Assembly (NCBI GenBank): GCA_021108215.1
Contig: JAIORK010000023.1
Span: forward strand, 1-35,719
Length of the DNA: 35,719 nt
Reading direction: 5' to 3'
Origin: a bacterium
GTDB lineage: Bacteria > Oederibacteriota > JAAXVQ01 > JAUVAV01
The position numbers were made by a program, and so were the translations under genes. Of the stretch, positions 603 through 21,470 are shown piece by piece. Each line of letters starts with the position of its first letter. Position 1 is the first letter of the stretch. The notes beneath the pieces were generated by a model. It was not told the origin of the DNA. It did not search any database and worked only from the letters and a program-made list of their open reading frames with translations.

Positions 603-796
603 AAGGTGAATAAATCCACATCGTGATTATCGAGTTGGTTAGTGAGATTGCTGAACTAGTCGAAGTATCAGTAGATTACTCTACATAAAACAAGCATTTT
701 TCCTGGTGGAGAAGCACATAAAAATGTACAATTTGGAGGTTGGGGGTATATAAATCAAAGTATCTAAAGATAATAATAAATACAAAAAGGAATATC

Positions 797-2407
797 ATGG
801 TAAAAGCAAAGAAAACCACTACCAAGCAAGAACCCATCGAAAAACAGCTCTGGAAAGCTGCTGATAAGTTAAGAAAAAATATTGATGCTGCTGAGTACAA
901 GCATATTATATTGGGCCTGATTTTCCTTAAATACATTTCCGAGGCATTTGAAGCATTGCATGATGTTTTGAAAAAAGGCAAAGGCGAATATAAAGGTGCT
1001 GATCCGGAAGATAAAGATGAATATAAAGCGGAAAATGTATTCTTTGTCCCACCCTCGGCACGCTGGAGTTTTTTGAAATCCCATGCCAAACAACCCACCA
1101 TTGGTAAAACCGTAGATGCTGCCATGGATGCCATTGAGCGGGAAAATCCCTCCCTCAAAGATGTATTGCCAAAAGTCTTTGCCAGAGGCAATCTTGATCC
1201 AACCAATCTCGGAGGGCTGATTGATTTAATAAGTAACATTGCCATGGAACACGCCAAAGCCAGGAGCGCGGATGTTTTGGGACATGTGTTCGAGTACTTC
1301 CTGGGTGAATTTGCTCTGGCAGAAGGAAAACAGGGTGGGCAATTTTATACACCGCGAAGCATTGTTGAATTATTAATCCAGGTGCTGGAACCTTACAAAG
1401 GTCGTGTGTTTGATCCGTGCTGTGGATCAGGCGGCATGTTTGTCCAATCAGAAAAATTTGTGGAAAACCACAAAGGAAAAATCAATGACATCTCCATATA
1501 CGGTCAGGAGAGCAACCATACCACCTGGCGTCTGGCAAAGATGAATCTGGCTATTCGAGGGATAGATAGTTCGCAGGTTAAATGGAACAACGAAGGTTCT
1601 TTTTTAAATGATTCCCACAAAGACCTGAAAGCGGATTATGTAATCGCCAATCCGCCCTTTAATGACAGCGACTGGAGTGGTGATTTGCTGCGCAAAGACG
1701 GACGCTGGAAACACGGCGTACCGCCTGGCGGAAATGCCAACTATGCCTGGATACAGCACTTCTTATATCACCTGAGTCCGCGTGGTATAGCCGGGTTCGT
1801 ATTGGCCAAAGGCTCACTCACATCCAAGACATCCGGGGAAGGCGATATCCGCAAAGCGTTAATCGAAGCCAGGCTGGTGGACTGTGTCGTCAATCTGCCT
1901 GCCAAGCTTTTTCTTAATACGCAGATACCGGCGAGTCTTTGGTTTTTACGTAGGGATAAGGTAGGGGCAAATAAACATTTGCCCTCACAAAACCGTACTG
2001 ATGAAATCCTCTTTATCGATGCAAGAAACGAAGGGCATCTTATCAATCGCAGAACCAGAGAATTATCCCATGAAGACATAAATAAAATCGCAGATACCTA
2101 TCATAAATGGCGGGAATCTACACATGAAAAAAAATTAAAGGTAGGGGCTCAAAATATTGAGCCCCTACAAAAATATAAATATCAGGACATAAAAGGTTTC
2201 TGCAATTCCGCTTCCATTGACCGCGTCCGCGAACTTGATTATGTCCTCACCCCCGGACGCTATGTAGGACTGGCAGAGGAAGAAGATGACTTTGATTTTA
2301 AAGAGCGCTTCACAACACTCAAAAAAGAATTCAAAGAACAGTTAAAAGAAGAAGAAAAGCTAAATGCTCTTATATTGGAGAATCTGAAAAAGGTGAAACT
2401 GGGATGA
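797..2407 (+). CDS. hsdM: Type I restriction-modification methyltransferase subunit HsdM
   Basis: HsdM methylates adenine N6 at the bipartite site recognised by HsdS and forms the core of the type I complex. The 536-residue product has the HsdM N-terminal helical domain (LWKAADKLRKNIDAAEYKH, about 14-32). The S-adenosylmethionine motif FDPCCGSGGMF is near residue 204 and the catalytic NPPF is at 285-288. I start at ATG 797 because AAAAAGG precedes it; an upstream in-frame ATG at 740 has no such site. Two GTAGGGGC palindromes are embedded in frame: VGANKHLPS from residue 389 in the loop before the FIDARN strand, and VGAQNIEPL from 449 between the HKWRE and GFCNSA motifs. Both look like tolerated loop insertions. 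The stop overlaps the next gene's ATG (ATGA). Confidence 0.95.
   Translation: MVKAKKTTTKQEPIEKQLWKAADKLRKNIDAAEYKHIILGLIFLKYISEAFEALHDVLKKGKGEYKGADPEDKDEYKAENVFFVPPSARWSFLKSHAKQPTIGKTVDAAMDAIERENPSLKDVLPKVFARGNLDPTNLGGLIDLISNIAMEHAKARSADVLGHVFEYFLGEFALAEGKQGGQFYTPRSIVELLIQVLEPYKGRVFDPCCGSGGMFVQSEKFVENHKGKINDISIYGQESNHTTWRLAKMNLAIRGIDSSQVKWNNEGSFLNDSHKDLKADYVIANPPFNDSDWSGDLLRKDGRWKHGVPPGGNANYAWIQHFLYHLSPRGIAGFVLAKGSLTSKTSGEGDIRKALIEARLVDCVVNLPAKLFLNTQIPASLWFLRRDKVGANKHLPSQNRTDEILFIDARNEGHLINRRTRELSHEDINKIADTYHKWRESTHEKKLKVGAQNIEPLQKYKYQDIKGFCNSASIDRVRELDYVLTPGRYVGLAEEEDDFDFKERFTTLKKEFKEQLKEEEKLNALILENLKKVKLG
1961..1988. repeat. GTAGGGGC palindrome, copy 2 (inside hsdM)
   Basis: This 28-bp element has left arm GTAGGGGCAAAT and right arm ATTTGCCCTCAC. 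It is in frame with hsdM and read as VGANKHLPS. The outer right arm has two mismatches, so this is a slightly decayed copy. A shorter GTAGGGA sits just upstream at 1950. Confidence 0.75.
2141..2168. repeat. GTAGGGGC palindrome, copy 3 (inside hsdM)
   Basis: This copy has perfect 12-bp arms, GTAGGGGCTCAA and TTGAGCCCCTAC, around an AATA loop. It is read in frame as VGAQNIEPL at HsdM residues 449-457. Confidence 0.85.
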
Positions 2408-3747
2408 GAGAAAGTGAAATCATAGAATTAAAAAAATCAACATCTGAGTTGAAAGAAGCTGTTATTTCCATTTGTGCCATGCTTAATCAACATGACAAAG
2501 GTACAGTGTATTTTGGCATTAATGATGTTGGCACTGTTGTAGGTCAGCAAATCGGAAAGTCAACGATCAAGGATATTTCTAAAACCATTGGCGATCATTT
2601 GGAACCTAAAATTTTCCCGGAGATAATGAAACAGACTATTAACGGCAAGAAGTGCATTGTTGTCAATGTTAGCGGAGCTGATCATCTTTACGCTGCCTAT
2701 GGACGCTTTTATCTGCGTGCAGGTGAAGAAGATAAAAAGCTTTCAGTTGCAGAATTAAGACGGCTTGTTGAAAAGAGAAATCATTATGTGTATTCATGGG
2801 GTGGCGAAATTTCGGAAGCGTCTCTAGCTAAAGCAGCGCCCTCAACCATTCGGGAATTTGTTAAAAGAGGGCAGGAGGCCGGGCGGATTAGTTTTTCTTT
2901 TGATTCTGTAAAAAGTGTCCTTCAAAAGCTGAACCTGGTTAAAGGACAAAAATTGCTTAATGCCGGTCAGGTGCTTTTTTGTAAAGATAATCGTGTCGAA
3001 GTGCAGGCCGCTGTTTTTGCCGGTAAAGATAAAATAACATTTCTTGATATTCAACGTTTTAATGGCACGCTTTTCGAACTTATTGAGAAATGCGAGCTCT
3101 ACGTGAAAGAGCATATCAACTGGCGGGCAGATCTTTCTGGTAGTAAAAGAATTGAAATACCCGAAATTCCCGTGCGTGCTATTAAAGAAGCGATTATTAA
3201 CTCGTTGTGTCATCGTGATTTTACCAATCCAAAGAGCAACGAGATTGCGGTCTATAAAGATAGGATCGAGATATTTAATCCCGGCCAATTTCCTTATGAG
3301 TATTCGCCAGAAGATTTTATCAAAGGCACAGAAGCCAGTCTTCCGCGCAATCCATTAATCGCCGAAACACTGTTTCGCTCAGAAGATGTAGAAAAGTGGG
3401 GCTCAGGGCTTAAGCGTATTAGCCAGGAATGCAAAGCTGCAGGAGTCAGGGTTATTTTCGCGAAAATTAAAAGCGGCTTTACTGTGACATTTTTTAGACC
3501 GGAAGCTGGATCGTCGGGTAAGAAAGACGATCACATTAAAAAAAGTTCGGTGAAAAGTTCGGTGAAAAGTTCGGTGAAAATAATCAAGCTTATTAAAGAG
3601 GATAATCAGATCACTATTCCAGTTATTGCAGAAAAAGTAGGACTGACTACCAGGGCAGTAGAAAAACAGATTAGTAAACTGCAGGCCAAGGGCATTATCC
3701 GCCGTATTGGCCCAGATAAGGGCGGACATTGGGAGATTGTGGGATGA
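2404..3747 (+). CDS. AlbA_2 / HATPase-type ATP-binding transcriptional regulator
   Basis: This 447-residue protein has the architecture often annotated as an ATP-binding or Schlafen-like regulator. An N-terminal AlbA_2 DNA-binding domain (about 1-120) opens with ESEIIELKKSTSELKEAVISICAMLN and contains GTVYFGIND. A GHKL/HATPase_c_4-like region (about 255-340) has EAIINSLCHRDF and IEIFNPGQFP. A C-terminal winged helix (about 395-447) has TIPVIAEKVGLTTRAVEKQISKLQAKG. Before the winged helix a 12-bp unit (AAAAGTTCGGTG) is repeated three times, giving SSVKSSVKSSVK. The gene overlaps hsdM by ATGA and hsdS by ATGA, so it is translated as part of the hsd operon. Such genes recur in type I loci; a regulatory or accessory defence role is inferred. 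Confidence 0.85.
   Translation: MRESEIIELKKSTSELKEAVISICAMLNQHDKGTVYFGINDVGTVVGQQIGKSTIKDISKTIGDHLEPKIFPEIMKQTINGKKCIVVNVSGADHLYAAYGRFYLRAGEEDKKLSVAELRRLVEKRNHYVYSWGGEISEASLAKAAPSTIREFVKRGQEAGRISFSFDSVKSVLQKLNLVKGQKLLNAGQVLFCKDNRVEVQAAVFAGKDKITFLDIQRFNGTLFELIEKCELYVKEHINWRADLSGSKRIEIPEIPVRAIKEAIINSLCHRDFTNPKSNEIAVYKDRIEIFNPGQFPYEYSPEDFIKGTEASLPRNPLIAETLFRSEDVEKWGSGLKRISQECKAAGVRVIFAKIKSGFTVTFFRPEAGSSGKKDDHIKKSSVKSSVKSSVKIIKLIKEDNQITIPVIAEKVGLTTRAVEKQISKLQAKGIIRRIGPDKGGHWEIVG
3541..3576 (+). repeat. Three 12-bp tandem units coding SSVK repeats
   Basis: The unit AAAAGTTCGGTG occurs three times head to tail, followed by a partial AAAA. Because the unit is a multiple of three, slippage would add or remove four residues without breaking the frame. 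It forms the linker between the ATPase-like part and the C-terminal winged helix. Confidence 0.8.
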
Positions 3748-4916
3748 GGGAGTGGAAAGAATGTAAATTAGTCTCACTAACTACCAAAATCGGGAGCGGT
3801 GCTACACCACGTGGTGGTAGCAATGCGTATAAAGAAAGTGGGATATCATTAATACGTAGTCAGAATATTAATGATTTTAGTTTTTCTACATCAGGATTAG
3901 CATTTATCGATGATAACCAAGCTGAAGAATTAAATAATGTTACTGTGGAAGAAAAAGATGTATTGCTGAATATAACAGGTGACAGTGTCGCTCGATGTTG
4001 TATTGTACCTCGCCAAATCTTGCCTGCAAGAGTTAATCAACATGTTTCTATTGTAAGGTCAGATCCGTCGGAAGTAGATTATAGATTTATTTTTTATTAT
4101 TTAATATCAATAAAAGAGGAATTACTATCGCATTCTGAAATCGGGGCGACAAGAAGAGCTTTGACGAAGGGGATGATAGAAAGTATTCAAATTAATCTCC
4201 CCCCTCTCCCCGAACAACGCGCCATCGCCTCAGTACTTTCCAGCCTGGATGACAAAATCGATCTCCTCCATCGCCAAAACAAAACCCTCGAATCCATGGC
4301 TGAAACGCTTTTTAGACAGTGGTTTATTGAGGCTGCGCCTCAAGAGGGGTGGGAGGAGAAGCCGTTAACATCGATAGCGGAATTTTTAAATGGAATAGCG
4401 TGTCAAAAATATCCGCCCATGAATAAGGTTGATAAGCTACCGGTATTGAAGATTAAAGAATTACGAAATGGTATTTCAGATGATTGTGATTGGGCTACCT
4501 CAAATATTAGTCCAGAGTATATTGTGAAAAATGGAGATGTGATTTTCTCGTGGTCAGCGTCCTTGATGGTTAAAATATGGGATGGTTCTGAATGTATATT
4601 AAATCAGCATTTATTCAAAGTAACATCGGTGAAATATCCCCAATGGCTTTATTATTTGTGGTGCAAGCATTATTTAGAAGAATTCATCACTATATCTTTA
4701 AGTCATGCGACTACTATGGGACATATAAAACGAAATGATTTAGAAAACGCTATGGTTTCAGTTCCTGATAATGAAATATTGGCGAAAATGAGTGGAATAA
4801 TTAGTCCTTTAATAGATAAGATTATTGGAAATAACAAACAAATGAAAAGTCTTGTTGATATACGAGATTCTCTGTTACCGAAATTAATGAGTGGGGAAGT
4901 TAGGGTGAAAGTATGA
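3744..4916 (+). CDS. hsdS: Type I restriction-modification specificity subunit HsdS
   Basis: HsdS determines the DNA target of the type I complex through two target recognition domains. The 390-residue product shows TRD1 (about 1-150) and the first conserved region, with PPLPEQRAIASVLSSLDDKI leading into a long helix (to about 195). TRD2 (about 205-345) and the second conserved helix, LIDKIIGNNKQMKSLVDIRDSLLPKLMSGEV, follow. I chose ATG 3744 over an in-frame ATG at 3729 because it forms the same ATGA overlap with the preceding stop that the other hsd genes show, and because the family begins close to EWKECKL. Length and two-domain layout are normal. The target sequence cannot be read from the protein. 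Confidence 0.93.
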   Translation: MREWKECKLVSLTTKIGSGATPRGGSNAYKESGISLIRSQNINDFSFSTSGLAFIDDNQAEELNNVTVEEKDVLLNITGDSVARCCIVPRQILPARVNQHVSIVRSDPSEVDYRFIFYYLISIKEELLSHSEIGATRRALTKGMIESIQINLPPLPEQRAIASVLSSLDDKIDLLHRQNKTLESMAETLFRQWFIEAAPQEGWEEKPLTSIAEFLNGIACQKYPPMNKVDKLPVLKIKELRNGISDDCDWATSNISPEYIVKNGDVIFSWSASLMVKIWDGSECILNQHLFKVTSVKYPQWLYYLWCKHYLEEFITISLSHATTMGHIKRNDLENAMVSVPDNEILAKMSGIISPLIDKIIGNNKQMKSLVDIRDSLLPKLMSGEVRVKV

Positions 4917-5050
4917 AAGAAAAGATGGCAGATCATACAAATTCGCCACGAACCGTAGAGACGTTGCATCCGGCATGCGCCGGACAAGTAGGGGTTCAAA
5001 ATATTGAACCCCTACGAATACTGAACCGCAATTTGACAATCCGATGGTAG
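4913..5050 (+). CDS. Short ORF coupled to hsdS (remnant or leader)
   Basis: The ATG overlaps the hsdS stop (ATGA) and opens a 45-residue frame. It reads MKEKMADHTNSPRTVETLH, then VGVQNIEPL supplied by the palindrome at 4988-5015, and stops at a TAG that belongs to the next palindrome (5047). I do not recognise it. It may be the start of a former operon gene whose remainder was lost when repeats and the transposase gene arrived. It may also be chance. Confidence 0.25.
   Translation: MKEKMADHTNSPRTVETLHPACAGQVGVQNIEPLRILNRNLTIRW
4988..5015. repeat. GTAGGGGT palindrome, copy 4
   Basis: This copy has perfect 12-bp arms, GTAGGGGTTCAA and TTGAACCCCTAC, around AATA. It differs from copy 3 by a compensated C-G to T-A pair change. 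It lies between hsdS and the RAYT gene. Confidence 0.85.
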
Positions 5051-5074
5051 GGGCGCGATGCATCGTGTGCCTAC
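5047..5074. repeat. GTAGGGGC palindrome, copy 5
   Basis: This 28-bp copy starts GTAGGGGCGCGATGCATCG and ends GTGTGCCTAC. The left half equals copy 1, while the right arm carries mismatches. It ends 15 bp before the RAYT start codon. Confidence 0.75.
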
Positions 5075-5089
5075 GGAAATGAATTGATT

Positions 5090-5614
5090 ATGACATTAAA
5101 TAATTCTGTGGTTCATCATCGCAGATCAATCCGGTTAAAAGCGTATGATTATTCGCAGGCCGGGTTGTATTTTATAACTATTTGTTCCTATAAAGGTGAA
5201 TGTTTGTTTGGGAAAATTGATAATGATGGCATGGTTTTAAATGAGGTAGGAGAAATTATAAATGATGAATGGATTAAATCACAAACCATTCGCAAAGAAA
5301 TTGAAATGGGTGTATTTGTGATTATGCCAAATCATTTTCATGGGATTGTACGCATAGTAGGGGCGAACGGCCGTTCGCCCCTACAAGAACCGCGAATTCA
5401 TATGGGTGCAGCCACATTATCCTCGTTGGTCGCTGGTTTTAAATCAGCCTGTACAAAAAAAATCAATCAAATTCGCAATATGCCAGGGGTGCCTGTCTGG
5501 CAACGCAATTATTATGAACATGTTATCCGCGATGAGGAATCACATCGAAATATTTCCGAATACATAATAAATAATCCTTTGAAATGGAATGATGATGAAT
5601 ATTATGAAAAATAA
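5090..5614 (+). CDS. REP-associated tyrosine transposase (RAYT, TnpA_REP family)
   Basis: This 174-residue protein has the RAYT signatures: an N-terminal HRRSIRLKAYDYSQAGLYF, the ITICSYKGECLFG strand, and the HUH-like motif MPNHFHGIV (about residues 80-88). A C-terminal WQRNYYEHVIRDEESHRNIS helix holds the candidate catalytic Tyr, followed by YIINNPLKW. RAYTs are domesticated single-strand transposases known to act on palindromic REP sequences. This gene sits among eight palindromes and contains one in frame (VGANGRSPL from residue 90), directly after the HUH strand. ATG 5090 fits the family start; an upstream in-frame TTG at 5084 adds two residues. Its 3' end overlaps the next frame. It separates hsdS from hsdR, so it probably inserted into the operon. 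Confidence 0.9.
   Translation: MTLNNSVVHHRRSIRLKAYDYSQAGLYFITICSYKGECLFGKIDNDGMVLNEVGEIINDEWIKSQTIRKEIEMGVFVIMPNHFHGIVRIVGANGRSPLQEPRIHMGAATLSSLVAGFKSACTKKINQIRNMPGVPVWQRNYYEHVIRDEESHRNISEYIINNPLKWNDDEYYEK
5357..5384. repeat. GTAGGGGC palindrome, copy 6 (inside the RAYT gene)
   Basis: This is a perfect 28-bp palindrome with half GTAGGGGCGAACGG. It is read in frame as VGANGRSPL within the transposase, in the linker just after the histidine motif. Confidence 0.9.
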
Positions 5615-5918
5615 AACCCAGTTGATCCGCAACAGCACAGCAGAGTTTCTGGTTTTCACCAGCCAGACAGGGGAACAGAGCATCGAGGCCCGATATGAGG
5701 CTGAAACCGTCTGGCTGACCCAGAAGCTTATGGCTGAGTTGTTTGATGTGGATGTTCGAACGATTAGTGAACACTTTAAAAACATCTTTCAAAATGAGGA
5801 ATTAGAGGAAAATGCAGTATTCTGGAAATTCCGGAATACTGCTGCTGATGGCAAGCAATACCTAACCCAATTTTACAACCTTGATGCCATTATTTCAGTA
5901 GGCTATCGGGTTAATTAG
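5604..5918 (+). pseudogene. Truncated RhuM-family protein (N-terminal fragment)
   Basis: This 104-residue frame matches the first third of the RhuM family and aligns closely with the full-length copy at 21999. Shared patterns are ETVWLTQKLMAELF versus ETVWLSQQLMAQLF, NTAADGK versus ITAADGK, and FYNLDAIISVGYRVN versus YYNLDMIISVGYRIK. It stops at TAG immediately after VGYRVN, where the intact copy continues with KVATQFRQWATRQL. A decayed GTAGGGGT palindrome begins 10 bp beyond the stop, so truncation by repeat-linked rearrangement is likely. The start overlaps the RAYT stop. Full-length RhuM genes are common in type I restriction operons; this one probably no longer provides that function. Confidence 0.75.
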
Positions 5919-5927
5919 GCCGAATTT

Positions 5928-5954
5928 GTAGGGGTTCAATATTTTGAACCCTGC
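5928..5954. repeat. GTAGGGGT palindrome, copy 7
   Basis: Left arm GTAGGGGTTCAA and right arm TTGAACCCTGC; one C is lost, so the element is 27 bp. It lies between the rhuM fragment and hsdR, ending 25 bp before the hsdR start. Confidence 0.75.
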
Positions 5955-5979
5955 GAATATACTGAGAAGGAAGACAAAG

Positions 5980-8900
5980 ATGACAACTAAAATAACCGAA
6001 TCTGAGATCGAGAAATTCGTCATTACGCTTCTGGAAAAGCAGGGCTATGAATACATTTATGGTCCTGATATCGCTCCTGACAGCGAGACACCGGAGCGGG
6101 AGAAGTTTGAGGATGTTGTACTAATTGATCGGCTGAAAAGTGCGGTTAGCAGGATTAATCCAATAATTTCTCAAGACAATCAAGAAGATGCGATCAAACA
6201 AATCCTTAGACTCAATTCCCCGGAACTTATTACCAATAACGAAGCTTTTCACCGCCTGCTGACCGAAGGTGTCAATATCAGCAAACAAGAAGGCGGCTAT
6301 AACCGGGGAGATTATGTTTGGCTAATTGATTTCAAAAATCTGGCTAACAATGATTTTTTAGTGGTGAATCAATTTTCTGTTAAAAATTCATCCCCTTTAG
6401 GGGACCGAGGGGCTACAAAACGGCCGGATGTTGTGCTTTTTGTGAATGGACTGCCTTTGGTGGTTATTGAACTTAAAAATCCTGCTGACGAACATGCTAC
6501 TGTTAAATCAGCTTTTAAACAAATCCAGACCTATAAAAATACCATTCCAGCTCTTTTTACTTACAACAGCTTTACTGTTATTTCCGATGCTTTGGAAGCC
6601 AGGGCTGGAACCATTTCGTCAGACTTCAACCGCTTTATGTTTTGGAAGACATCAGACGGTAAGGTTGAGGCATCTCTTCTGATCGGACAATTGGAAACAT
6701 TGATTAAAGGTATGTTGGATACAAAAACTATACTTGATCTTATCCGCTATTTTATTGTTTTTGAAAAATCCAGGAAAGAAGACAGAGAGACCGGAATTAT
6801 TACGATACAGACAATCAAAAAGTTAGCTGCTTATCATCAATATTATGCTGTGAACCGCGCAGTTGAATCCACGCTGCGTGCGTCCGGTTTTGTAGGGGCG
6901 AATGATTATTCGCCCCTACGGGTTATGGAATCACCGGAAAGTTACAGCGTCCCAGGTGTCAGTCAACAACCTGAGGGTGATCGCAAAGGCGGAGTTATTT
7001 GGCATACCCAGGGCAGCGGCAAATCGCTGTCCATGGTTTTTTATTCCGGTAAAATTGTTTTGGCTATGGATAATCCTACTATTTTGGTCATTACTGACAG
7101 GAATGATCTGGATGATCAACTCTTTGATACCTTTGCCGCTTCCAGGCAATTGCTTCGTCAGGAACCGGTTCAGGCTGAAAATCGTGACAACCTTAAGGAT
7201 TTATTAAAGGTAGCGTCTGGCGGAATTGTGTTTACCACCATACACAAGTTTCAGCCGGAAGATGGCAATGTCTATGAAAAATTATCAGACCGGGAAAATA
7301 TTATTGTTATTGCAGACGAAGCACATCGCACACAGTATGGTTTTAAAGCCAAGACCATTGATGACAAAGATGAGCAGGGAAATGTAATCGGCAAGAAAAC
7401 AGTCTATGGTTTTGCCAAATATTTGCGAGATGCCTTACCAAAGGCAACCTACCTGGGTTTTACCGGCACACCGATTGAGAAAACAGATGTGAACACACCG
7501 GCTGTGTTTGGGAATTATGTAGATGTATATGATGTGTCTATGGCAGTCGGAGATGGTGCCACTGTCAGGATATTTTATGAGAACAGGCTGGCTAAGATTC
7601 ATCTGAGTGAGCAAGGCAAAGAGTTGGTCGCTGAATTGGACGATGATCTGGAAAAGGCTGATCTTTCAGATACACAAAAAGTTAAAGCTAAATGGACGCA
7701 ACTGGAGGCATTGATAGGCAGTGAGGACAGAATCAAGCAAGTCGCGCAGGATATGATCGCACATTATGAGAAGCGCCAGAGCGGATTTGATGGTAAAGCC
7801 ATGATTGTGACCATGTCCCGACGCATTGCAGCTGATTTGTATGAAGAAATGATTAAAATAAAACCTGATTGGCATCATGCTGATTTGAAAAAAGGCACAC
7901 TCAAAGTGGTCATGACAGCGGCATCTTCTGATGGGCCAAAGATGGCCAAACATCATACCAGTAAAGATGAACGCAGAGTATTGGCAGAGCGAATGAAAAA
8001 TCCGGAAGATGAACTCAAAGTTGTTATTGTGCGGGATATGTGGTTGACCGGATTTGATGCGCCATGTCTGAAAACCTTGTATATTGACAAACCCATGAAA
8101 GGCCACAATCTTATGCAGGCCATAGCACGTGTTAACCGTGTGTATAATCAAGTGGAAGGTGGTCTGATTGTTGACTATCTGGGTATTGCCTCTGATCTGA
8201 AAAAAGCACTCTCGTTTTATTCAGATAATGGCGGGAAAGGTGATCCGGCCATTACCCAGGAACAGGCAGTTCAAAAAATGCATGAAAATCTGGAAGTGGT
8301 CGCTCAAATGTTTCATGGTTTTGCTTATGAGGATTATTTTGATGCCGACACCGGCAAAAAACTGACGATGATATTGGAAGCAGAAGAGCATATTCTTGGT
8401 CTGGAAAACGGCAGGAAACGCTATATTGACGCTGTGGCTGCTTTGTCCAAGGCATTTTCAATTTCCGTACCGCATGAACAAGCCATGGATGTGAAAGATG
8501 AAGTGGGGTTTTTCCAGGCAGTTAAATCACGTTTAATTAAATTTGACCGGGAAGATTCCGGCAGAACAAATGAGGAAATTGAAAGTGCCATCCGGCAGGT
8601 GATTGACAAATCACTGGTCACTGACCAGGTGATTGATGTCTTTGATGCAGCCGGCATCAAGAAACCGGATATCTCCATCCTCTCCGAGGAATTTTTGTTG
8701 GAAGTCAAAAACATGCAACACAAAAATATTGCCATCGAAGTATTGAAAAAACTCCTGAATGATGAAATCAAAGGAAGGCTGCGGACAAATCTGGTGCAAG
8801 GCAAGTCCTTGGCCGAGATGCTGGAAAATTCCATCAAACGCTATCATCAAAAAATCATTACGGCCGCTGAAGTTATTGAAGAACTCATTGAGATCAGTAA

Positions 8901-9225
8901 GCATATAAAAGAAATGGAAAAAGAACCTGAAGAACTGGGTTTGTCAGCTGCTGAATATGCCTTTTATACAGCCATTGCCGACAATGACAGTGCCAAAGAA
9001 GTCATGCAAAAAGACAAACTAAGGGAATTGGCTGTTGTGTTGTTTGAGAAAGTGAAGGCCAATGCAGCAATTGATTGGACTATAAAAGAGAGCGTGAAAG
9101 CCAAGTTGAAAGTGATTGTGAAAAGAACCCTGCGCCAATTTGGCTATCCACCGGATATGCAGAAATTAGCGACTGAGACCGTACTTAAACAGGCGGAATT
9201 GATTGCAGAAGAATTGACTCGTTAA
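5980..9225 (+). CDS. hsdR: Type I restriction enzyme R subunit HsdR
   Basis: HsdR is the ATP-driven translocase and nuclease of the type I complex. The 1081-residue product has the PD-(D/E)xK nuclease (RPDVVLF near 148-154 and VIELKNP near 162-168), Walker A HTQGSGKS (about 342-349), DEAH box ADEAHR (446-449) and FTGTPIE (about 494). Further helicase motifs (IVRDMWLTGFDAPCLKTLYIDKP, QAIARVNRVY) follow, then the helical C-terminal domain. ATG 5980 is chosen for its GAAGGAAG site. A GTAGGGGC palindrome is embedded in frame (VGANDYSPL from residue 305) between the nuclease and motor domains. A second possible insert (SSPLGDRGA) precedes the nuclease RPD motif. The catalytic motifs are intact, so the enzyme may still work. 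Confidence 0.95.
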   Translation: MTTKITESEIEKFVITLLEKQGYEYIYGPDIAPDSETPEREKFEDVVLIDRLKSAVSRINPIISQDNQEDAIKQILRLNSPELITNNEAFHRLLTEGVNISKQEGGYNRGDYVWLIDFKNLANNDFLVVNQFSVKNSSPLGDRGATKRPDVVLFVNGLPLVVIELKNPADEHATVKSAFKQIQTYKNTIPALFTYNSFTVISDALEARAGTISSDFNRFMFWKTSDGKVEASLLIGQLETLIKGMLDTKTILDLIRYFIVFEKSRKEDRETGIITIQTIKKLAAYHQYYAVNRAVESTLRASGFVGANDYSPLRVMESPESYSVPGVSQQPEGDRKGGVIWHTQGSGKSLSMVFYSGKIVLAMDNPTILVITDRNDLDDQLFDTFAASRQLLRQEPVQAENRDNLKDLLKVASGGIVFTTIHKFQPEDGNVYEKLSDRENIIVIADEAHRTQYGFKAKTIDDKDEQGNVIGKKTVYGFAKYLRDALPKATYLGFTGTPIEKTDVNTPAVFGNYVDVYDVSMAVGDGATVRIFYENRLAKIHLSEQGKELVAELDDDLEKADLSDTQKVKAKWTQLEALIGSEDRIKQVAQDMIAHYEKRQSGFDGKAMIVTMSRRIAADLYEEMIKIKPDWHHADLKKGTLKVVMTAASSDGPKMAKHHTSKDERRVLAERMKNPEDELKVVIVRDMWLTGFDAPCLKTLYIDKPMKGHNLMQAIARVNRVYNQVEGGLIVDYLGIASDLKKALSFYSDNGGKGDPAITQEQAVQKMHENLEVVAQMFHGFAYEDYFDADTGKKLTMILEAEEHILGLENGRKRYIDAVAALSKAFSISVPHEQAMDVKDEVGFFQAVKSRLIKFDREDSGRTNEEIESAIRQVIDKSLVTDQVIDVFDAAGIKKPDISILSEEFLLEVKNMQHKNIAIEVLKKLLNDEIKGRLRTNLVQGKSLAEMLENSIKRYHQKIITAAEVIEELIEISKHIKEMEKEPEELGLSAAEYAFYTAIADNDSAKEVMQKDKLRELAVVLFEKVKANAAIDWTIKESVKAKLKVIVKRTLRQFGYPPDMQKLATETVLKQAELIAEELTR
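6388..6415. repeat. Possible second hairpin insert in hsdR
   Basis: A TCCCCTTTAGGGGA hairpin followed by GAGGGGCTAC is read in frame as SSPLGDRGA just before the nuclease RPDVVLF motif. From memory, other HsdR proteins have a short Gly/Asn-rich linker here. Its end resembles the GGGGC/CTAC ends of the other palindromes, but the layout differs, so kinship is uncertain. Confidence 0.35.
6892..6919. repeat. GTAGGGGC palindrome, copy 8 (inside hsdR)
   Basis: This copy has perfect 12-bp arms, GTAGGGGCGAAT and ATTCGCCCCTAC, around GATT. It is read in frame as VGANDYSPL at HsdR residues 305-313. Confidence 0.9.
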
Positions 9226-9228: not shown

Positions 9229-9272
9229 TACGGGACATAGTTGGCGCCGGAATTCGAATATTCGAATAAGCA
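9229..9272. repeat. Dispersed repeat: TACGGGACATAGTT plus TTCGAATATTCGAA block
   Basis: Two repeat pieces are joined here. TACGGGACATAGTT (9229-9242) recurs with one mismatch at 12446-12459. A 30-bp block with the palindrome TTCGAATATTCGAA (9243-9272) recurs with three mismatches at 12890-12919. Both downstream copies lie just beyond the PHP-Cache gene, so the pairs bracket it. Confidence 0.65.
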
Positions 9273-9351: not shown

Positions 9352-9423
9352 ATGAGGTCAAAAATTGCCTTAGTCGTTTTTCAAGGGGAAGTCAGGATTT
9401 TATTAAAAAAGGGTATGCGTTGA
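9352..9423 (+). CDS. 23-residue ORF with a strong ribosome site (leader candidate)
   Basis: The frame reads MRSKIALVVFQGEVRILLKKGMR and is preceded by AAGGAGG at near-ideal spacing, stronger than the site of the large gene behind it. It stops 4 bp before the ATG of the PHP-Cache gene, an arrangement that would allow translational coupling. I do not recognise the peptide. It may be a leader peptide or the remnant of a gene start. Confidence 0.35.
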   Translation: MRSKIALVVFQGEVRILLKKGMR

Positions 9424-9427: not shown

Positions 9428-12424
9428 ATGAAAACTGTGAAAGTTGATCTGCATTGCCATTCATCCCATAGTGATGGTGAGTGGCGTCCTGACAAGATTG
9501 CCCAAGTCTGTGCCGTCACAGGCGTGAAATATGCGTCCCTGACAGACCATAACACATTGGATGGATTGGACGCTTTCGAATCGGCGTGTGACCGTAATGG
9601 TATCGGTTTTGTCAGCGGTCTTGAATTGACAGCACGGTATGGCAGTAAAGAAATTCATCTTCTCTGTTACGGCTTTGACAAGGAGGACGCATCCCTCAGG
9701 GAAGCGGTAACCGCCATTAAAGAGAGCCTCTTACCAAATAGAACTATCCATGCAGTGGCAGGACCAAAAGAATTGGAAAATCTGATACAGACCGTTCATG
9801 AGGCCGGTGGAGTAGTCATCTTGGCCCATCCTTTCCAGACAGAACCTGATCGTCCCAAACTTGAATCACTTATCGCTGATCTTGTTGAACACGGCCTGGA
9901 TGGAATCGAAGTCTATCATTCTCAATCCACTTCCGAACAACAGGAAATTTTACATGCTTTAGCGAACCAATACCAATGTGGGCTCTCTATAAATAGAGAG
10001 CGGGGGTTCGGGGGCGAAGCCCCTGAATCGGATAGGAGGGGCCGGCAAAACGCATCGGCGTTTGCGTCGGGGGAACCTATGGTTCCATCGAAAGCTCTGC
10101 TTGTCTCTGGAGGAACGGACCACCATGGCTATTCAGGGAGTACAGGACCCGAAGTCGGCGTTGACATCCCGGAAGATGAATGGCGAACGTTCCGAGATTG
10201 TTTGCTCAAACAGCGCAAAATGAGCAGAAAAAAACCTTCTGCCCATGCTGCTAACACGCAAAGCGCTTCGTCTTCCGCAAATCCAACCAATAAAACTCGT
10301 CTCTTTATCTGGATGATAGCACCCGCTTTGGCTGCCGTATTCCTTTTCATCGTAGCCCTGTTCGGAATATTTCTGCCGGGATATGAGAAGGGGTTAATGG
10401 ACCGAAAGCGGGAGATGATTCGGGAATTGACAAACACGGTATGGAGCATGCTTGATGAGGCGGATAATAAAATCAGATTGGGTCGGATATCTCCGTCGGA
10501 TGCGCGTGCACAAGTGATCGAAAGGACACGTGCGCTGAAATATGGCAAGGAAGGAAAAGATTATTTCTGGTTGCAGGACCTGACACCACGGATGATCATG
10601 CATCCTTACAGGAGTGACCTTGAGGGTCAGGATCTTTCAGACTTCAAAGACCCCCGTGGTACATACATTTTCAAAGTTTTTGCAGACAAAGTCCGAACCG
10701 ACGGTGAAGGGTATGTTGATTACGTCTGGCAATGGAAGGACGATCCTTCCAGACTGGAAGCAAAAGAGTCGTACATCCGGCTTTTCAAACCTTGGGAATG
10801 GGTGATTGGAACAGGACTCTATATGCATGACGTTCACAAAGAGATCAAGACGTTGCAAATGAGGATTGTCTCTGCCATGCTTGTGATCATTGCCGTATTA
10901 ATCCTTCTACTGCTCACCATGCTGCGTGGAGGGCTGAGGACCGAGCGCATGAGATTGTTAGCAGAACGGCGACTGAAAGAATCAAACGAACGCTACCTCT
11001 CTCTGGTTCAGGCCGCAACAGAGGGCGTCCTCATTGTAAGAAACAACCGATGTGCCTATGCGAACCCCATCTTCCTCCAATTTATTGGGTGCGATTCTGA
11101 AGAATTGGGATTACTCGACTGGCGTGAACTTTTCCCGCGGATCTCCACCCAAGAATTTTCTACGTTGAAGACTGATGCAGGGACCTATAGGGACACATTT
11201 CTTCGGAGACGGGATGCTACAGACCTGCCTTGTCGAATGACACTCAAGGGAATATCGGAAAACCATTCTGGAAATTTTGTCATACTCGTCCGCAAGTCAG
11301 AAGATACCAGTGCGTCATCAATGCCTGATTCAAGCGGACTATTAAAAAGGTTATTGAACCTGCCCTCAGCGATTGCGGAGGATGTATCACGGAAAATAGT
11401 ACAGGCGTCATCGACACCCCAGGTTATCACCCTTTGTGAGCGGACACCGGAGATGGTTCATTCCATGCTGGAAAGTGGAGCATCTCCTTCGGCCATAACG
11501 ATGATGATTTCCTCGATCACCGACTCTGCGACAATTAAATTCATAGAACTGGCACAGGCGAATTTGGGGCCAGCCCCTGTCCGTTTCGCGTTTGTGGCCT
11601 TGGGCAGTCAAGGACGCAAGGAGCAGACCCTTTTTACAGATCAGGACAATGCTATCATTTATGAATCGACTGTGCATAGTAGTGACACACAAGTAGCTAG
11701 TTACTTTGCAGCTTTAAGCGGACAAGTCTGTGACAATTTGGAAAAGTCGGGTTTTCTCAATTGCAAAAGCTTTGTCATGGCCAACAATCCGAAGTGGTGT
11801 CAACCCTTGGAGGTATGGAAAGGATACGTGACGGATTGGATCACAAAAGCCGAAGAGAATGACATCATGCAATTCAACATTGTTTACGATTTTCGCTGTA
11901 TCGTTGATGAGTCGGAGATGATTCAGCAGCGTCTTCGAGAGCATATCCAGGAGCAGATCAGAAAAACACCAAGGTTTTTAATGCAAGTTGCAAGAAATGC
12001 CCTCCTTTATAAATCGCCTACCCGGCTTTTCGGTAACATTGTGACAGTGGGAGGTTCAAAAGAGAAAACAGGACAGCTTGATCTAAAGGCCGTCATGATA
12101 CCTGTTGTCAGTTTTACCAGGTTGTATTCAATCCAGAAAGGGATTTCATTCCCATCCACCCAGGAACGGTTATCGGCAATGTCCGACCAGGGCGTGATTC
12201 TGCCATCCCAATTTCACGATATCCTGACTGTTTTTGAAGCTCTGACAAGGCTCAGATTAAGATATCAGGTTCAAACAATCCACAAAGGTAGAGCACCTGA
12301 TAATTTCATAGATCCATCCTTGCTTGGTCATGTTGATGAAGCTGTACTTAAGGAATGTTTCAAGGAGATTGACATGATCCAGGAAAGGATTAGGTTGGAT
12401 TTCTTGGGCGGGGAAACCATATAA
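9428..12424 (+). CDS. PHP-Cache-PAS-DUF294 membrane sensor fusion protein
   Basis: This 998-residue protein joins four modules. A PHP phosphoesterase (1 to about 260) has HCHSSHSDG, LTDHNT, GLELT, LAHPF and SGGTDHHG, so all metal-ligand motifs are present. A first membrane helix (about 291-316) is followed by an extracytoplasmic Cache domain (about 317-475) with GKDYFWLQD, MIMHPY and WEWVIGTGLY. A second membrane helix lies at about 478-500. A PAS domain spans about 520-610, and a DUF294/GlnD-like nucleotidyltransferase follows with GSQGRKEQTLFTDQDNAII (from about residue 722) and a helical C-terminal part. Known families suggest ligand-gated nucleotidyl transfer, with PHP as a possible removing activity; that coupling is inference. 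Residues 185-225 come from a 123-bp repeat inserted in frame beside a PHP metal motif. The start follows a 23-residue coupled ORF. Confidence 0.85.
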   Translation: MKTVKVDLHCHSSHSDGEWRPDKIAQVCAVTGVKYASLTDHNTLDGLDAFESACDRNGIGFVSGLELTARYGSKEIHLLCYGFDKEDASLREAVTAIKESLLPNRTIHAVAGPKELENLIQTVHEAGGVVILAHPFQTEPDRPKLESLIADLVEHGLDGIEVYHSQSTSEQQEILHALANQYQCGLSINRERGFGGEAPESDRRGRQNASAFASGEPMVPSKALLVSGGTDHHGYSGSTGPEVGVDIPEDEWRTFRDCLLKQRKMSRKKPSAHAANTQSASSSANPTNKTRLFIWMIAPALAAVFLFIVALFGIFLPGYEKGLMDRKREMIRELTNTVWSMLDEADNKIRLGRISPSDARAQVIERTRALKYGKEGKDYFWLQDLTPRMIMHPYRSDLEGQDLSDFKDPRGTYIFKVFADKVRTDGEGYVDYVWQWKDDPSRLEAKESYIRLFKPWEWVIGTGLYMHDVHKEIKTLQMRIVSAMLVIIAVLILLLLTMLRGGLRTERMRLLAERRLKESNERYLSLVQAATEGVLIVRNNRCAYANPIFLQFIGCDSEELGLLDWRELFPRISTQEFSTLKTDAGTYRDTFLRRRDATDLPCRMTLKGISENHSGNFVILVRKSEDTSASSMPDSSGLLKRLLNLPSAIAEDVSRKIVQASSTPQVITLCERTPEMVHSMLESGASPSAITMMISSITDSATIKFIELAQANLGPAPVRFAFVALGSQGRKEQTLFTDQDNAIIYESTVHSSDTQVASYFAALSGQVCDNLEKSGFLNCKSFVMANNPKWCQPLEVWKGYVTDWITKAEENDIMQFNIVYDFRCIVDESEMIQQRLREHIQEQIRKTPRFLMQVARNALLYKSPTRLFGNIVTVGGSKEKTGQLDLKAVMIPVVSFTRLYSIQKGISFPSTQERLSAMSDQGVILPSQFHDILTVFEALTRLRLRYQVQTIHKGRAPDNFIDPSLLGHVDEAVLKECFKEIDMIQERIRLDFLGGETI
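9980..10102. repeat. 123-bp hairpin-rich repeat, copy A (inside the PHP domain)
   Basis: The element runs from GGGCTCTCTATA to GAAAGCTCTGCTT and is 123 bp, exactly 41 codons. It contains several short hairpins: CTCTCTATAAATAGAGAG, TTCGGGGGC/GCCCCTGAA, AACGCATCGGCGTT and GGAACCTATGGTTCC. The copy at 34973-35105 matches it at about 90% over the last 102 bases. In this gene it codes residues 185-225, which interrupt the strand leading into the SGGTDHHG motif. Confidence 0.85.
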
Positions 12425-12889: not shown

Positions 12890-12919
12890 GGTGCCGGAGT
12901 TCGAATGTTCGAATAAGCA
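12890..12919. repeat. TTCGAATGTTCGAA block, second copy
   Basis: This is the second copy of the 30-bp block at 9243-9272, with the same GCCGGA(A/G)TTCGAAT core and AATAAGCA end. Confidence 0.7.
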
Positions 12920-16836: not shown

Positions 16837-17733
16837 ATGAAACAAACCCGGAACCAGTGGATGCAGCGGCAGCGGGGAACAGCACTGGGGCATTGGATTT
16901 TTTATAGTTTATTGAAAATTGTGGGCCGTGATTTTGCCGGAGTATTGCTCTACCCGGTTGCTTTCTATTTCACCTTCACTTCCTCAGCGGCCGTTCGTGC
17001 CTCGCAAAACTATTTAAACAAAGCTGCCGCCTTTTGGCAATGGCAGTCGGTACCCGGTGTTTTCGGACACTTTTTGGAATTTTCCCGGACATTGCTGGAC
17101 CGGGCAGCGGTTTTTATGCAGACCGGCGGGACCTTTACATTTGAGTTTATCGGTGAGTCGTATATTCGTGAGGCCGTTGCCCGTGGCAAGGGAGTCTTGC
17201 TGGTCTCAGCCCACGCCGGGAATTGGGAGATTGCGGGGAATTGTTTACAAAAACGGCTTGATGTTCCGGTGCAGATTGCTATGTTCATGCACGGCAAAGA
17301 TGCCCATTCGGTTCATTTGCCCAAAAGCAGCAGCGGCAAGCTGGGGATCATTAATCTTTCGGATGATGAGATGGCCGGGGTGGAGATGCTCCGGGCGTTG
17401 CGGCGCGGCGAGATTGTTGCCATGCATGGAGACCGGTTTTTTCCCAAGTCGCGGGTGCGCCGGGAAATATTTCTCGGGCATCCGGCAACTTTTCCGGAAG
17501 GCCCCTTTCAGCTGGCAGCGATTTCACAGGCTGCGTTGGTGGTTTGTTTTGCGATGAGAACCGGGCGGCGTCGTTATCAACTGGTTGCCGAACCGGCGGT
17601 GATAAAAAATCCGGCTGAAACCCGTGCAGGGTTTGTGAGTCAGGCCATGACGGTTTATGTGTGTGCTTTGGAGAAAATTATAAAGGCGTATCCAATGCAA
17701 TGGTTTAATTGGTACGATTTTTGGAAACAGTAA
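16837..17733 (+). CDS. LpxL/HtrB-like lysophospholipid acyltransferase
   Basis: This 298-residue protein belongs to the lipid A late acyltransferase family. It carries HAGNWE (His126, Glu131), equivalent to the HFGNWE catalytic motif, and a MHGDRFF stretch (about 197) typical of the second conserved block. The N-terminal part has a hydrophobic segment (about 33-50), so it should sit on the inner membrane. In APE and flexirubin-type clusters such enzymes are thought to transfer the finished acyl chain to a lipid or glycolipid anchor. It starts 5 bp after the carrier protein stop with no clear ribosome site, suggesting coupled translation. A housekeeping lipid A role cannot be excluded but the context argues against it. 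Confidence 0.85.
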   Translation: MKQTRNQWMQRQRGTALGHWIFYSLLKIVGRDFAGVLLYPVAFYFTFTSSAAVRASQNYLNKAAAFWQWQSVPGVFGHFLEFSRTLLDRAAVFMQTGGTFTFEFIGESYIREAVARGKGVLLVSAHAGNWEIAGNCLQKRLDVPVQIAMFMHGKDAHSVHLPKSSSGKLGIINLSDDEMAGVEMLRALRRGEIVAMHGDRFFPKSRVRREIFLGHPATFPEGPFQLAAISQAALVVCFAMRTGRRRYQLVAEPAVIKNPAETRAGFVSQAMTVYVCALEKIIKAYPMQWFNWYDFWKQ

Positions 17734-17745
17734 AGAGGTGTTTAC

Positions 17746-18801
17746 ATGTATACCAAGTGGATGTCGGATTTTTCTAATGATGAAATTATGGCGGTTGCCA
17801 AAAAACCCGGTGCGTTGCTGACACTTGAACTCGAATTGACGCGAGCTTGTAATCTGGTTTGCAAGTACTGTTATGCCAGTTCAGGTCAATCGCTAAGCGG
17901 CGAATTGACCTATGCGGAATTGATCAAAGTGGTGGCTGAGGCGGAGGAACTGGGTGCGCGCCGGATTGTTATACTGGGCGGCGGGGAACCGCTGATCTAT
18001 CCGCAGCTGCGTACGTTGATTGCCCATATCCGCAATACCGGGTTGGGTGTTGACCTTTTTACCAACGGGACACTACTGAATCGCGATTGGGCTGAGTTTC
18101 TTTTTTCCATGCAGGTTGCGGTCAATGTCAAATATAACAGCTTTGCACCAGCAACCCAGGATTATCTAGCCGGCCGGCCCGGCACCTATGCCGCGATTCA
18201 AGAAGCACTTTCCCATCTGCATCAGGCAGGGTATCCGGATAAGGAGCATCCGCTGGGAATTGAGACGATTATTTGTGCACAGAATGTAGATGAAATTCCT
18301 GAAATTTGGCAATGGGCCAGAAACCATCAGTATATTCCTTATATCGAAATGATGACACCTCAGGGCCGGCTAAGAGATTTTCCTAATCTCAATGTGCCAT
18401 TGGAAAGAGTCCAACAGGTTTTCTTGGAAGTTCAAAAAATGGATAAAGAGCAGTTCGGGCATGAGTGGCCGATCACACCGGCTTTGCTGGGTGAGACCTG
18501 TCAGCGTCATCTGTATTCCTGCACGGTTGATTCTTTGGGTAATATCAGCCCCTGCCCGGGCGTGGATATCAAGGTGGGTAATGTCCGGGAGCAGTCTTTG
18601 GGCACCATCTTGAAAAACAGCCCGGTAATCAGCGATTTACGCAATATTCGCGAGACCATCAAGGGTGAATGCAAAACCTGTGAACATCATGCCATCTGTT
18701 ATGGCTGCCGTGGTGCAGCGTATCAGTTGACTGGGGATTATCTGGCCACCGATTCGCTGTGTTGGAAAGTCACCAACAAAGTTGGAGACTTAAATACTTA
18801 A
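17746..18801 (+). CDS. Radical SAM / SPASM domain enzyme
   Basis: This 351-residue protein has the radical SAM cluster motif CNLVCKYC (Cys35, Cys39, Cys42), the GGGEPLIYPQL region and a downstream strand with DLFTNGTLL. Its C-terminal part holds several cysteines in SPASM-like spacing (CTVDSLGNISPCPG, then CKTCEHHAICYGC), expected to bind one or two auxiliary iron-sulfur clusters. Such enzymes modify peptides or small molecules by radical chemistry. No precursor peptide is visible nearby, so the substrate may be the acyl product or its headgroup; that is inference. AGAGGTG precedes the ATG, and the gene lies 12 bp after the acyltransferase in the same operon. I do not recall it as a standard member of aryl polyene clusters. 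Confidence 0.88.
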   Translation: MYTKWMSDFSNDEIMAVAKKPGALLTLELELTRACNLVCKYCYASSGQSLSGELTYAELIKVVAEAEELGARRIVILGGGEPLIYPQLRTLIAHIRNTGLGVDLFTNGTLLNRDWAEFLFSMQVAVNVKYNSFAPATQDYLAGRPGTYAAIQEALSHLHQAGYPDKEHPLGIETIICAQNVDEIPEIWQWARNHQYIPYIEMMTPQGRLRDFPNLNVPLERVQQVFLEVQKMDKEQFGHEWPITPALLGETCQRHLYSCTVDSLGNISPCPGVDIKVGNVREQSLGTILKNSPVISDLRNIRETIKGECKTCEHHAICYGCRGAAYQLTGDYLATDSLCWKVTNKVGDLNT

Positions 18802-18816
18802 AACAGGGATTCCAAT

Positions 18817-19203
18817 ATGAGTTTGGAAGATTTTTTGCCCCACAAAAAACCGGCTGTTCTGATTTCGAAAATTGAGAGTATGGAAGACCGGGCGTGCGTT
18901 GTTTGTATGGACCCACCCGGTCCGGAGGCATCTCCTTTTTTATTGATTGAGGCAGCTGCCCAGGCAGTGGCAGCCATGTTGGGGAAATCTGAGCATGATA
19001 AAAAGCGTCCGCCGACAGAGGGCTATTTAGTGGCGGTGCGTAAGATGCGGTTTTTACATGATCTGGATCCGGCAAGGGATGTGCGCGTGGCTATCACTCA
19101 GGCGAGAAATCTTGATCCGTTTTTTTTATATGCAGCACGTATCACACAGGGAGACCGGGATGTGGCCCGGGGAACGATCACTCTCTATAAAAGGGAGGTG
19201 TGA
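18817..19203 (+). CDS. Hotdog-fold dehydratase, ApeP-like
   Basis: This 128-residue protein has the pattern LPHKKPAVLISKI and FLLIEAAAQAVAAMLG, the layout of FabZ-like 3-hydroxyacyl-ACP dehydratases of the ApeP type. In these, LPHxxP replaces the GHFPxxPxxPG motif and the Glu of EAxAQ takes part in catalysis. It would be one of two dehydratases in the cluster, the other being at 28120, which keeps the classical motif. In aryl polyene systems ApeI and ApeP work as a pair; the same pairing here is inferred. Confidence 0.75.
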   Translation: MSLEDFLPHKKPAVLISKIESMEDRACVVCMDPPGPEASPFLLIEAAAQAVAAMLGKSEHDKKRPPTEGYLVAVRKMRFLHDLDPARDVRVAITQARNLDPFFLYAARITQGDRDVARGTITLYKREV

Positions 19204-19204
19204 C

Positions 19205-19660
19205 ATGATGCGGCGCCGATTAAATCCTGCTGCGCTTTCCAAGCTCAGTCATGTTATCACGCTGGATGTACGGTTTTCTGAGGTTGATTCTTTGGGCATG
19301 GTCTGGCACGGTAATTATATTCATTATTTTGAAGTAGCGCGTGAGGCCTTCGGAAAAAAATATGGGTTGGATTATACCAGCCTTATCAATGCCAAGCTGG
19401 TTGTACCGGTGGTGGAAGCCCAGGTTTTTTACCATTCACCCGGCAGGTTGGATGATCGCCTGGAGATCACGGCCTATTTTATCTATCATGAATCATCCAA
19501 ATTGGAAATGTATTACGAGATTTGCCGTGCTTCGGACCGGATATTTCTGGCAGAAGGCAGAACCCTCCAGGTTTGTACCACACCCCGAGGCGAGCTCCTG
19601 ATTACCAAACCTGCGTTGCTTCGCACATTCTACGACAAATGGGGACCGGATTTTAAATGA
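19205..19660 (+). CDS. Acyl thioesterase, 4HBT/YbgC family
   Basis: This 151-residue hotdog protein has VRFSEVDSLGMVWHGNYIHYFEVARE, the signature of 4-hydroxybenzoyl-CoA thioesterase-like enzymes, with the catalytic Asp at the D-S-L-G-M position. I start at ATG 19205 because AGGGAGGTG lies just upstream; the frame stays open further back but overlaps the previous gene. It matches the thioesterase (ApeK-type) in APE clusters, which may release or edit acyl chains. The stop overlaps the ketosynthase ATG (ATGA). Confidence 0.85.
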   Translation: MMRRRLNPAALSKLSHVITLDVRFSEVDSLGMVWHGNYIHYFEVAREAFGKKYGLDYTSLINAKLVVPVVEAQVFYHSPGRLDDRLEITAYFIYHESSKLEMYYEICRASDRIFLAEGRTLQVCTTPRGELLITKPALLRTFYDKWGPDFK

Positions 19661-20826: not shown

Positions 20827-21455
20827 TGCTTATTTATTCTGCGGCCTATTGTACAAATAATGAAATCGGCAGGATGGGTGAAACCGGGAAAAAACTTTCG
20901 GAAAAGCCGGGGACACTCCCCAAATGGGCGCAAGTGTTTTCCAGCGTTTATGAGCGCTACCCGCGGCTTGATCCGTTTTCTCAGGGTGTTGCGATTTTAG
21001 TGGAAAAAATGTTGGGCCGGCCGCCTGTCAAAGAAAATATTGGCGTGGTACTGGCAACAGCAACCGGATGTCTGGAAGCGGATCAGGAGTATTACCGCAG
21101 CGCGGTGGCGTCGCCTGAACTGGCCAGTCCTAAATTATTTCCCTATACCCTGCCTTCGGCAGGTTTGGCTGAGGTGATGATCCGCTATGGGATGACCGGT
21201 CCTGCGTTGGTGATGTGGCAGGAAAAGGCATTGGCACCTATGATCAGTCAGATAAAACACTGGATTGAGAACCAAGAAATTGATTCGGGGATTATCGTAT
21301 CGTGTGATATCGGTCTGTTGCACGGGATGGAAGGCTTCGCGCTTCACATCGGACCGGAGGTCCGGGACCAACCACTTTTGGACATCCGGGCCTATTCCAC
21401 GCAAGATATGTTGGCCGCCATTTTGGCGGGAAAAATAGTGTCGAGAAATGATTGA
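20826..21455 (+). CDS. Short ketosynthase-like protein (Ketoacyl-synt_2 type)
   Basis: This 209-residue protein resembles the N-terminal half of a condensing enzyme (PENIGVVLATATG-like strand VKENIGVVLATATGCLEAD, FPYTLPSAGLAEVMIRYGMTGPAL). Where an active ketosynthase has its cysteine nucleophile it has TGPALVMW, so it is not expected to condense by itself. It lacks the C-terminal half with the two histidines. I infer a partner or chain-length role for KS1, by analogy with ApeC-type chain length factors. The ATG overlaps the KS1 stop. Confidence 0.65.
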   Translation: MLIYSAAYCTNNEIGRMGETGKKLSEKPGTLPKWAQVFSSVYERYPRLDPFSQGVAILVEKMLGRPPVKENIGVVLATATGCLEADQEYYRSAVASPELASPKLFPYTLPSAGLAEVMIRYGMTGPALVMWQEKALAPMISQIKHWIENQEIDSGIIVSCDIGLLHGMEGFALHIGPEVRDQPLLDIRAYSTQDMLAAILAGKIVSRND

Positions 21456-21470
21456 CGCAAGGAGAGACGA

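Follow-up and report, generated by a model that had tools for sequence, protein, structure and literature searches.

In GlnD, a Pol-beta-type nucleotidyltransferase, a helical substrate domain and a metal-dependent phosphohydrolase (HD) are combined in one chain under the control of a glutamine-sensing ACT domain. The enzyme is found in a PII operon context, and its target GlnK governs the AmtB transporter (PMC10710835). GlnE, the glutamine synthetase adenylyltransferase, uses a second transferase domain for erasure. In Legionella, the writer DrrA/SidM and the eraser SidD are two secreted, host-directed proteins that lack a sensor, and erasure by SidD is carried out by an unrelated, metal-dependent phosphatase fold (PMC12663964). 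RNase Z, a nuclease, is a proven deAMPylase (PMC12663964).

DUF294 and DUF294_C also form the output of proteins with a cytoplasmic cNMP/CBS input, which are encoded in operons with a separate DnaQ gene near actP, such as P. putida PP_0354/PP_0353 and P. fluorescens Pflu5625. In P. putida, the RNase_T gene pp_0353 is in an operon with pp_0354, and homologues in P. aeruginosa adjoin actP-yjcH (PMC9927547). We infer the DUF294 domain of pp_0354 from the annotation of Pflu5625 (PMC5715377). When grown on pyruvate, pp_0353 and actP-I mutants of P. putida grow poorly and the pp_0354 mutant does not; the authors themselves proposed mRNA decay and left the mechanism open (PMC9927547).

Here, we analyzed a window of 35,719 nucleotides (the whole stretch of bacterial DNA that was studied), in which a single gene encodes a membrane protein with PHP, Cache, PAS and DUF294 domains. 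This protein resembles GlnD in carrying a Pol-beta-type nucleotidyltransferase, a helical substrate domain, a metal-dependent phosphohydrolase and a sensor on one chain. It differs from GlnD by having PHP instead of HD and a membrane Cache receptor without ACT, and its family is found in a symporter context instead of a PII operon context. With the Pseudomonas operons it shares the DUF294/DUF294_C output beside a phosphoesterase and, at the level of the family, beside ActP-like symporters, whereas the input is a transmembrane Cache domain and the phosphoesterase is a fused PHP domain. This four-part membrane protein belongs to a widespread, undescribed family: we found no description of such a system in the literature on DUF294 with PHP or Cache, and no published assay of any family member.

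Domain organization and topology

The open reading frame at 9428-12424 starts with ATG and forms a single frame of 998 aa, in which frame reading revealed no internal stops. The following features were assigned in window coordinates:

9428..12424, + strand: whole gene, PHP - TM - sCache_2 - TM - PAS - DUF294 - DUF294_C (998 aa, coordinates including the stop)
9428..10177, + strand: PHP phosphoesterase domain (residues 1-250; PF02811; conservation; model matches 7ug9 and 2yb1)
9971..10102, + strand: in-frame dispersed repeat in PHP (repeat DNA match 9981 to 10102; adds residues about 182-221)
10292..10390, + strand: TM helix 1 (residues 289-321; hydropathy, long helix in the model)
10394..10852, + strand: extracytoplasmic sCache_2 domain (PF17200; matches to 5g4y and 4k08; conservation)
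10844..10942, + strand: TM helix 2, continuing into a signalling helix (residues 473-505; hydropathy and model)
10988..11302, + strand: PAS domain (residues about 521-625; weak by sequence)
11441..11857, + strand: DUF294 nucleotidyltransferase domain (PF03445; G726-x11-D738-x-D740; model closest to DrrA and GlnE)
11969..12403, + strand: DUF294_C helical substrate-binding domain (PF10335; same Pfam clan as GlnD_UR_UTase)

Four domains were detected above the Pfam cut-offs, including PHP (residues 7-130, 41 bits, cut-off 26.4), sCache_2 (323-475, 122 bits), DUF294 (672-810, 144 bits) and DUF294_C (848-992, 105 bits). The PAS domain scored below (PAS_8, 521-574, 17.5 bits, cut-off 21.8); in the model this region is a folded mixed alpha/beta domain, and the PAS matches of relatives exceed the cut-offs. 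Hydropathy gave exactly two membrane helices, one on each side of the Cache domain, and the PHP and DUF294 domains should therefore lie on the same, presumably cytoplasmic, side. In the full-length model (pLDDT 83, pTM 0.49) the single domains are confident and their relative arrangement is not. Thus, the reading frame, Pfam, hydropathy and the model all agree with the original prediction of one chain carrying PHP, a transmembrane Cache domain, PAS and DUF294, although that list of four parts was incomplete and had overlooked the C-terminal DUF294_C. The possibility that PHP and Cache-DUF294 are two genes with a stop between them, joined here by a sequencing error, was rejected because the same fusion recurs in many independent genomes across phyla.

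Two near-identical 27-bp copies, each with a TTCGAA palindrome, bracket the gene (9246-9272 and 12893-12919; chance expectation none), and the gene may have been acquired as a cassette. A 23-codon ORF at 9352-9423 (MRSKIALVVFQGEVRILLKKGMR) has a strong AAGGAGG site and stops 4 bases short of the gene's ATG; it is a possible translationally coupled leader. Elsewhere in the window, a type I restriction-modification locus (hsdM, hsdS and hsdR) occupies 740-9225, with a Schlafen AlbA_2-type ORF (2404-3747) between hsdM and hsdS. A cluster at 16837-24975, which contains a lipid A-type acyltransferase, a radical SAM/SPASM protein, two ketoacyl synthases and a RhuM-like ORF, has the appearance of a pathway of lipid or aryl-polyene type.

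Input and transferase domains

Among solved structures, the Cache domain matches the sCache_2 domains 4k08 and 5g4y. In PscD (5g4y), Tyr90, His103 and Lys156 are critical for hydrogen bonding of the ligand's carboxyl group, and Tyr143 makes a further contact (PMC5062169). The corresponding residues Y379, H392, K446 and Y432 are kept in nearly all rows of the alignment. With these PscD-type contacts conserved, a small carboxylate, e.g. an acetate-type acid outside the cell, would be the best guess for the ligand.

In the transferase, G726, S727, R730, D738 and D740, which belong to the GSQGR...DQD motif pointed out earlier, are all present and near-invariant in relatives. Since no solved DUF294 homologue was found by sequence search, fold comparison was needed. 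The model of the transferase region (pLDDT 90, pTM 0.89) matched best the AMPylase DrrA (6yx5, TM 0.71), followed by the adenylylation and deadenylylation domains of GlnE (1v4a and 3k7d, TM about 0.6) and then by aminoglycoside nucleotidyltransferases. We take the motif spacing of DrrA to be of the same type as that of this DUF294 domain. The likeness to DrrA is one of fold comparison only, and that to GlnE covers the transferase and the helical bundle; by Pfam, however, there is one transferase domain here, next to a phosphoesterase, in place of the two of GlnE. DUF294_C has been described as a helical substrate domain of the macromolecule type, comparable to those of GlnD and GlnE (PMC3710099). 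Pfam gave no match to GlnD_UR_UTase, HD or ACT in the 998-aa protein, and a weak trace of the GlnD_UR_UTase model was seen in two relatives (loci L044 and L065).

The PHP domain and its repeat insertion

All eight metal residues of the PHP domain (H9, H11, D16, H41, E66, H134, D231 and H233) are present and near-invariant in the aligned PHP relatives, and thus neither PHP nor DUF294 has lost an essential catalytic residue. In the model, the PHP barrel is closest to the PHP domain of RNase AM (7ug9) and to 2yb1, a PHP enzyme whose structure contains Mn, AMP and phosphate. The PHP subfamily takes in 3',5'-nucleoside bisphosphatases (NF041577; 2yb1).

The domain had been called intact, which is correct for its metal residues, but it is not pristine. 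An insert of 40 aa (residues about 182-221; window 9971-10090) follows the third metal motif (AHP) and precedes GGTDHH, and is missing from every aligned PHP relative, whose chains go straight to the (G/A)G(T/S)D motif. It is located in the loop ahead of the last metal strand and keeps the reading frame; in the model it is disordered (pLDDT about 35), in contrast to a barrel that is mostly above 90. Given this insert, the PHP activity of the protein is uncertain.

The DNA of the insert belongs to a dispersed repeat of hairpin type (about 115-120 bp) with seven copies in this genome, which folds into hairpins and a branched stem (-64 kcal/mol, z-score -4.5). A second copy in the window is located at 34994-35105, and others are on contigs C28, C36 and C54 of the same genome. 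Other copies of this genome whose surroundings were read appear intergenic or at gene ends, and only the PHP copy, of those examined, falls inside a conserved protein. Peptide matches to the repeat were found in one genome of the same family (G004) and in another (G007), and an Rfam search gave nothing above threshold (best Clostridiales-2, 21 of 58.6 bits). Rickettsia palindromic elements are short, hairpin-rich dispersed repeats that lie in frame within coding regions; the repeat described here is similar in these respects but unlike them in sequence, and it looks like a mobile element. An ORF resembling a REP-associated tyrosine transposase (5084-5614; NF047646, 66 bits, cut-off 80) is present between hsdS and hsdR and could be linked to the dispersed repeats.

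Distribution of the family

Scanning of a genome collection with the window protein identified 51 related loci, most of which encode PHP-Cache-DUF294 in one chain, in Lentisphaerota, Verrucomicrobiota, Chloroflexota, Armatimonadota and Fermentibacterota. A unique architecture was therefore rejected: the four-part order, which had been thought unfamiliar, is the layout of a conserved, recurrent family in many phyla. Relatives of about 1,235 aa contain an additional second PAS domain and a CBS pair, neither of which occurs in the window protein or its closest relatives. A few genomes encode PHP upstream in an ORF of its own, overlapping or adjacent (L042, L076, L083/L152, L086 and L112), and some of these may be assembly frameshifts. 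The gene was found in none of the five other members of the same family searched, and almost all genomes of the same phylum are without it.

As the scan with the window protein leans to PHP-bearing relatives, a search with DUF294_C in 385 genomes, from which strong loci were fetched, was used as a less biased check.

Probable exchange of the phosphoesterase partner

Among 74 Cache-type loci, a partner phosphoesterase was identified in 69, either fused, as in the 9428-12424 protein, or in a neighboring gene. The raw counts, obtained with local profiles trained on adjacent genes and with Pfam runs on representatives, were PHP 45, calcineurin-like 12, DnaQ/RNase_T 7, AP_endonuc_2 5 and none found 5; no locus had two kinds of partner. 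Two of the five partnerless loci are on cut contigs, and no phosphoesterase was identified at L125, L158 or L159. The HAD neighbor of L158 and the second ORF of L071, which has no Pfam family, were left out of the count, and L083 and L152, apparently one record, were counted once. The DUF294_C-drawn sample of 12 Cache-type loci contained PHP (6), calcineurin-like (3), AP_endonuc_2 (2) and no partner (1).

In L104, L110 and L118, where the Cache-type gene has no PHP, a calcineurin-like gene is immediately downstream; nine further calcineurin-like loci come from one phylum (Pfam confirmation on L144). Six Myxococcota loci have RNase_T immediately upstream of the Cache-type gene, and a seventh has it in the flank; the DnaQ gene of L085 was the only non-adjacent match of the four partner profiles in Cache-type loci. 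The calcineurin and DEDDh motifs are complete in these partner genes. No RNase_T match was found in the genome of the window. The five AP_endonuc_2 neighbors (L107, L116, L154, L155 and L156) are conserved, convergent TIM-barrel genes in two phyla; they are not co-directional with the Cache-type genes and their family also holds sugar isomerases, and they may be partner phosphoesterases less surely than the others.

A tree built from the transferase region unites the Cache-type proteins in a single supported group, inside which partner types vary. The calcineurin-like loci form one clade and the DnaQ loci another, nested among PHP loci, and it is therefore most likely that the phosphoesterase partner has been swapped during evolution. 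The presence of unrelated phosphate-cutting enzymes beside the same transferase suggests that the pairing matters.

Downstream of classical cNMP-CBS-DUF294 genes, an RNase_T (DnaQ-type) gene often lies within 62 bp, and about 16 such adjacent pairs were seen. In three Myxococcota loci (L077, L082 and L084) a DnaQ gene is located between an upstream DUF294 gene and the Cache-type one, so that one eraser may serve two writers.

Linkage to monocarboxylate symporters

A sodium:solute symporter was found in the fetched flank of 62 of the 74 Cache-type DUF294 loci, and in 39 of these 62 it is on the same strand and no more than 350 bp away. In the scanned examples this symporter resembles ActP/MctC, and a DUF485-type small subunit is often encoded ahead of it. 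Monocarboxylate uptake is thus the likely circuit of this sensor family. Linkage in the window itself was rejected: no symporter was found near 9428-12424 within the window, and the only SSF of the genome, accompanied by a DUF4212 subunit, is on another contig. This SSF is 71-79% identical to eight symporters that adjoin Cache-type sensors; none of the other symporters compared exceeds 43%.

A model for the Cache-DUF294 sensors and its alternatives

We give a slight preference to a model in which the protein is a receptor for a small carboxylate (C2/C3-type) that runs a switch based on protein nucleotidylation in monocarboxylate uptake. Outside the cell, the acid would be bound by the Cache domain, and TM helix 2 and PAS would relay the signal to the DUF294 transferase. 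The transferase would then modify a protein that belongs to the ActP-like symporter system or regulates it closely, using a nucleotide that is most probably AMP, and PHP on the same chain would remove this nucleotide by hydrolysing the phosphodiester. The comparison with GlnD made in the original prediction gains from the recurrent fusion, the conserved active sites, the replacement of PHP by unrelated phosphoesterases and the AMPylase-like fold; by domain content (no HD, no ACT), however, the protein is no GlnD homologue. As a testable model, the sensor may work like GlnD or DrrA/SidD, yet it stands outside the GlnD and GlnE families. The P. putida phenotypes would also fit a writer/eraser switch on a transporter: impaired growth of the pp_0353 and actP-I mutants but not of the pp_0354 mutant is as expected if loss of the eraser locks the system off and loss of the writer is silent.

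Other readings of the transferase-phosphoesterase pair were considered. DUF294 might make a free nucleotide signal that PHP, DnaQ or the calcineurin-like enzyme degrades, as in cyclase/phosphodiesterase pairs. All four partner classes contain nucleotide-cutting phosphodiesterases, Cache-PAS receptors often drive second-messenger enzymes and some relatives have CBS domains; nevertheless, we regard this as improbable, as the nearest folds are protein AMPylases and aminoglycoside nucleotidyltransferases instead of cyclic-dinucleotide synthases, and DUF294_C is of the macromolecule type. Tailing of RNA or tRNA 3' ends, with trimming by a partner exonuclease, would agree with the exonucleases among DnaQ and some PHP enzymes and with the similarity of the PHP model to RNase AM, and distant MNT-like transferases can act on tRNA. 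Such a role appears very improbable considering the tight linkage to a monocarboxylate symporter, the acid-sensing receptor and the fact that the best structural matches of the transferase modify proteins. It is also conceivable that the phosphoesterase acts on a substrate of its own (e.g. pAp or another nucleotide by-product) and reverses nothing, leaving the transferase alone as the regulatory output. The 3',5'-nucleoside bisphosphatases of the PHP subfamily (NF041577; 2yb1) point in this direction, but three other folds in the same place are more readily accounted for by a single required reaction on the transferase product, and we consider this reading unlikely to be correct.

A different question, compatible with a switch in the family as a whole, is whether the repeat has impaired the PHP arm of the window protein and left a one-way modifier or a decaying gene. 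The insertion in the catalytic domain is peculiar to this copy, and the gene is both unlinked from the symporter and absent from nearly all genomes of its phylum, including the five other members of its family that were searched. On the other hand, the frame is kept, the insert lies in a loop, most of the barrel is modelled with high confidence, and every catalytic residue and the 998-aa frame are preserved. Impairment is thus somewhat doubtful, but it deserves more weight than the alternatives for the family given above.

Returning to reversible nucleotidylation, a more general proposal is that these proteins represent a receptor class in which the modification is gated by an extracellular carboxylate and acts on the Na+/monocarboxylate symporter system, with erasers repeatedly recruited from unrelated folds (PHP, DnaQ, calcineurin-like and perhaps AP-endonuclease-like). 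We advance this more tentatively, as a reading whose chances fall a little short of even. The repeat in PHP is an instance of a hairpin element, mobile in appearance, being tolerated within a catalytic domain. If the proposed receptor class is true, membrane receptors would gain nucleotidylation as an output next to phosphorylation and cyclic nucleotides, the uncharacterised DUF294 family would obtain a function, three to four enzyme families would become candidates for de-nucleotidylation, and the common pyruvate phenotype of pp_0353 and actP in Pseudomonas would be explained.
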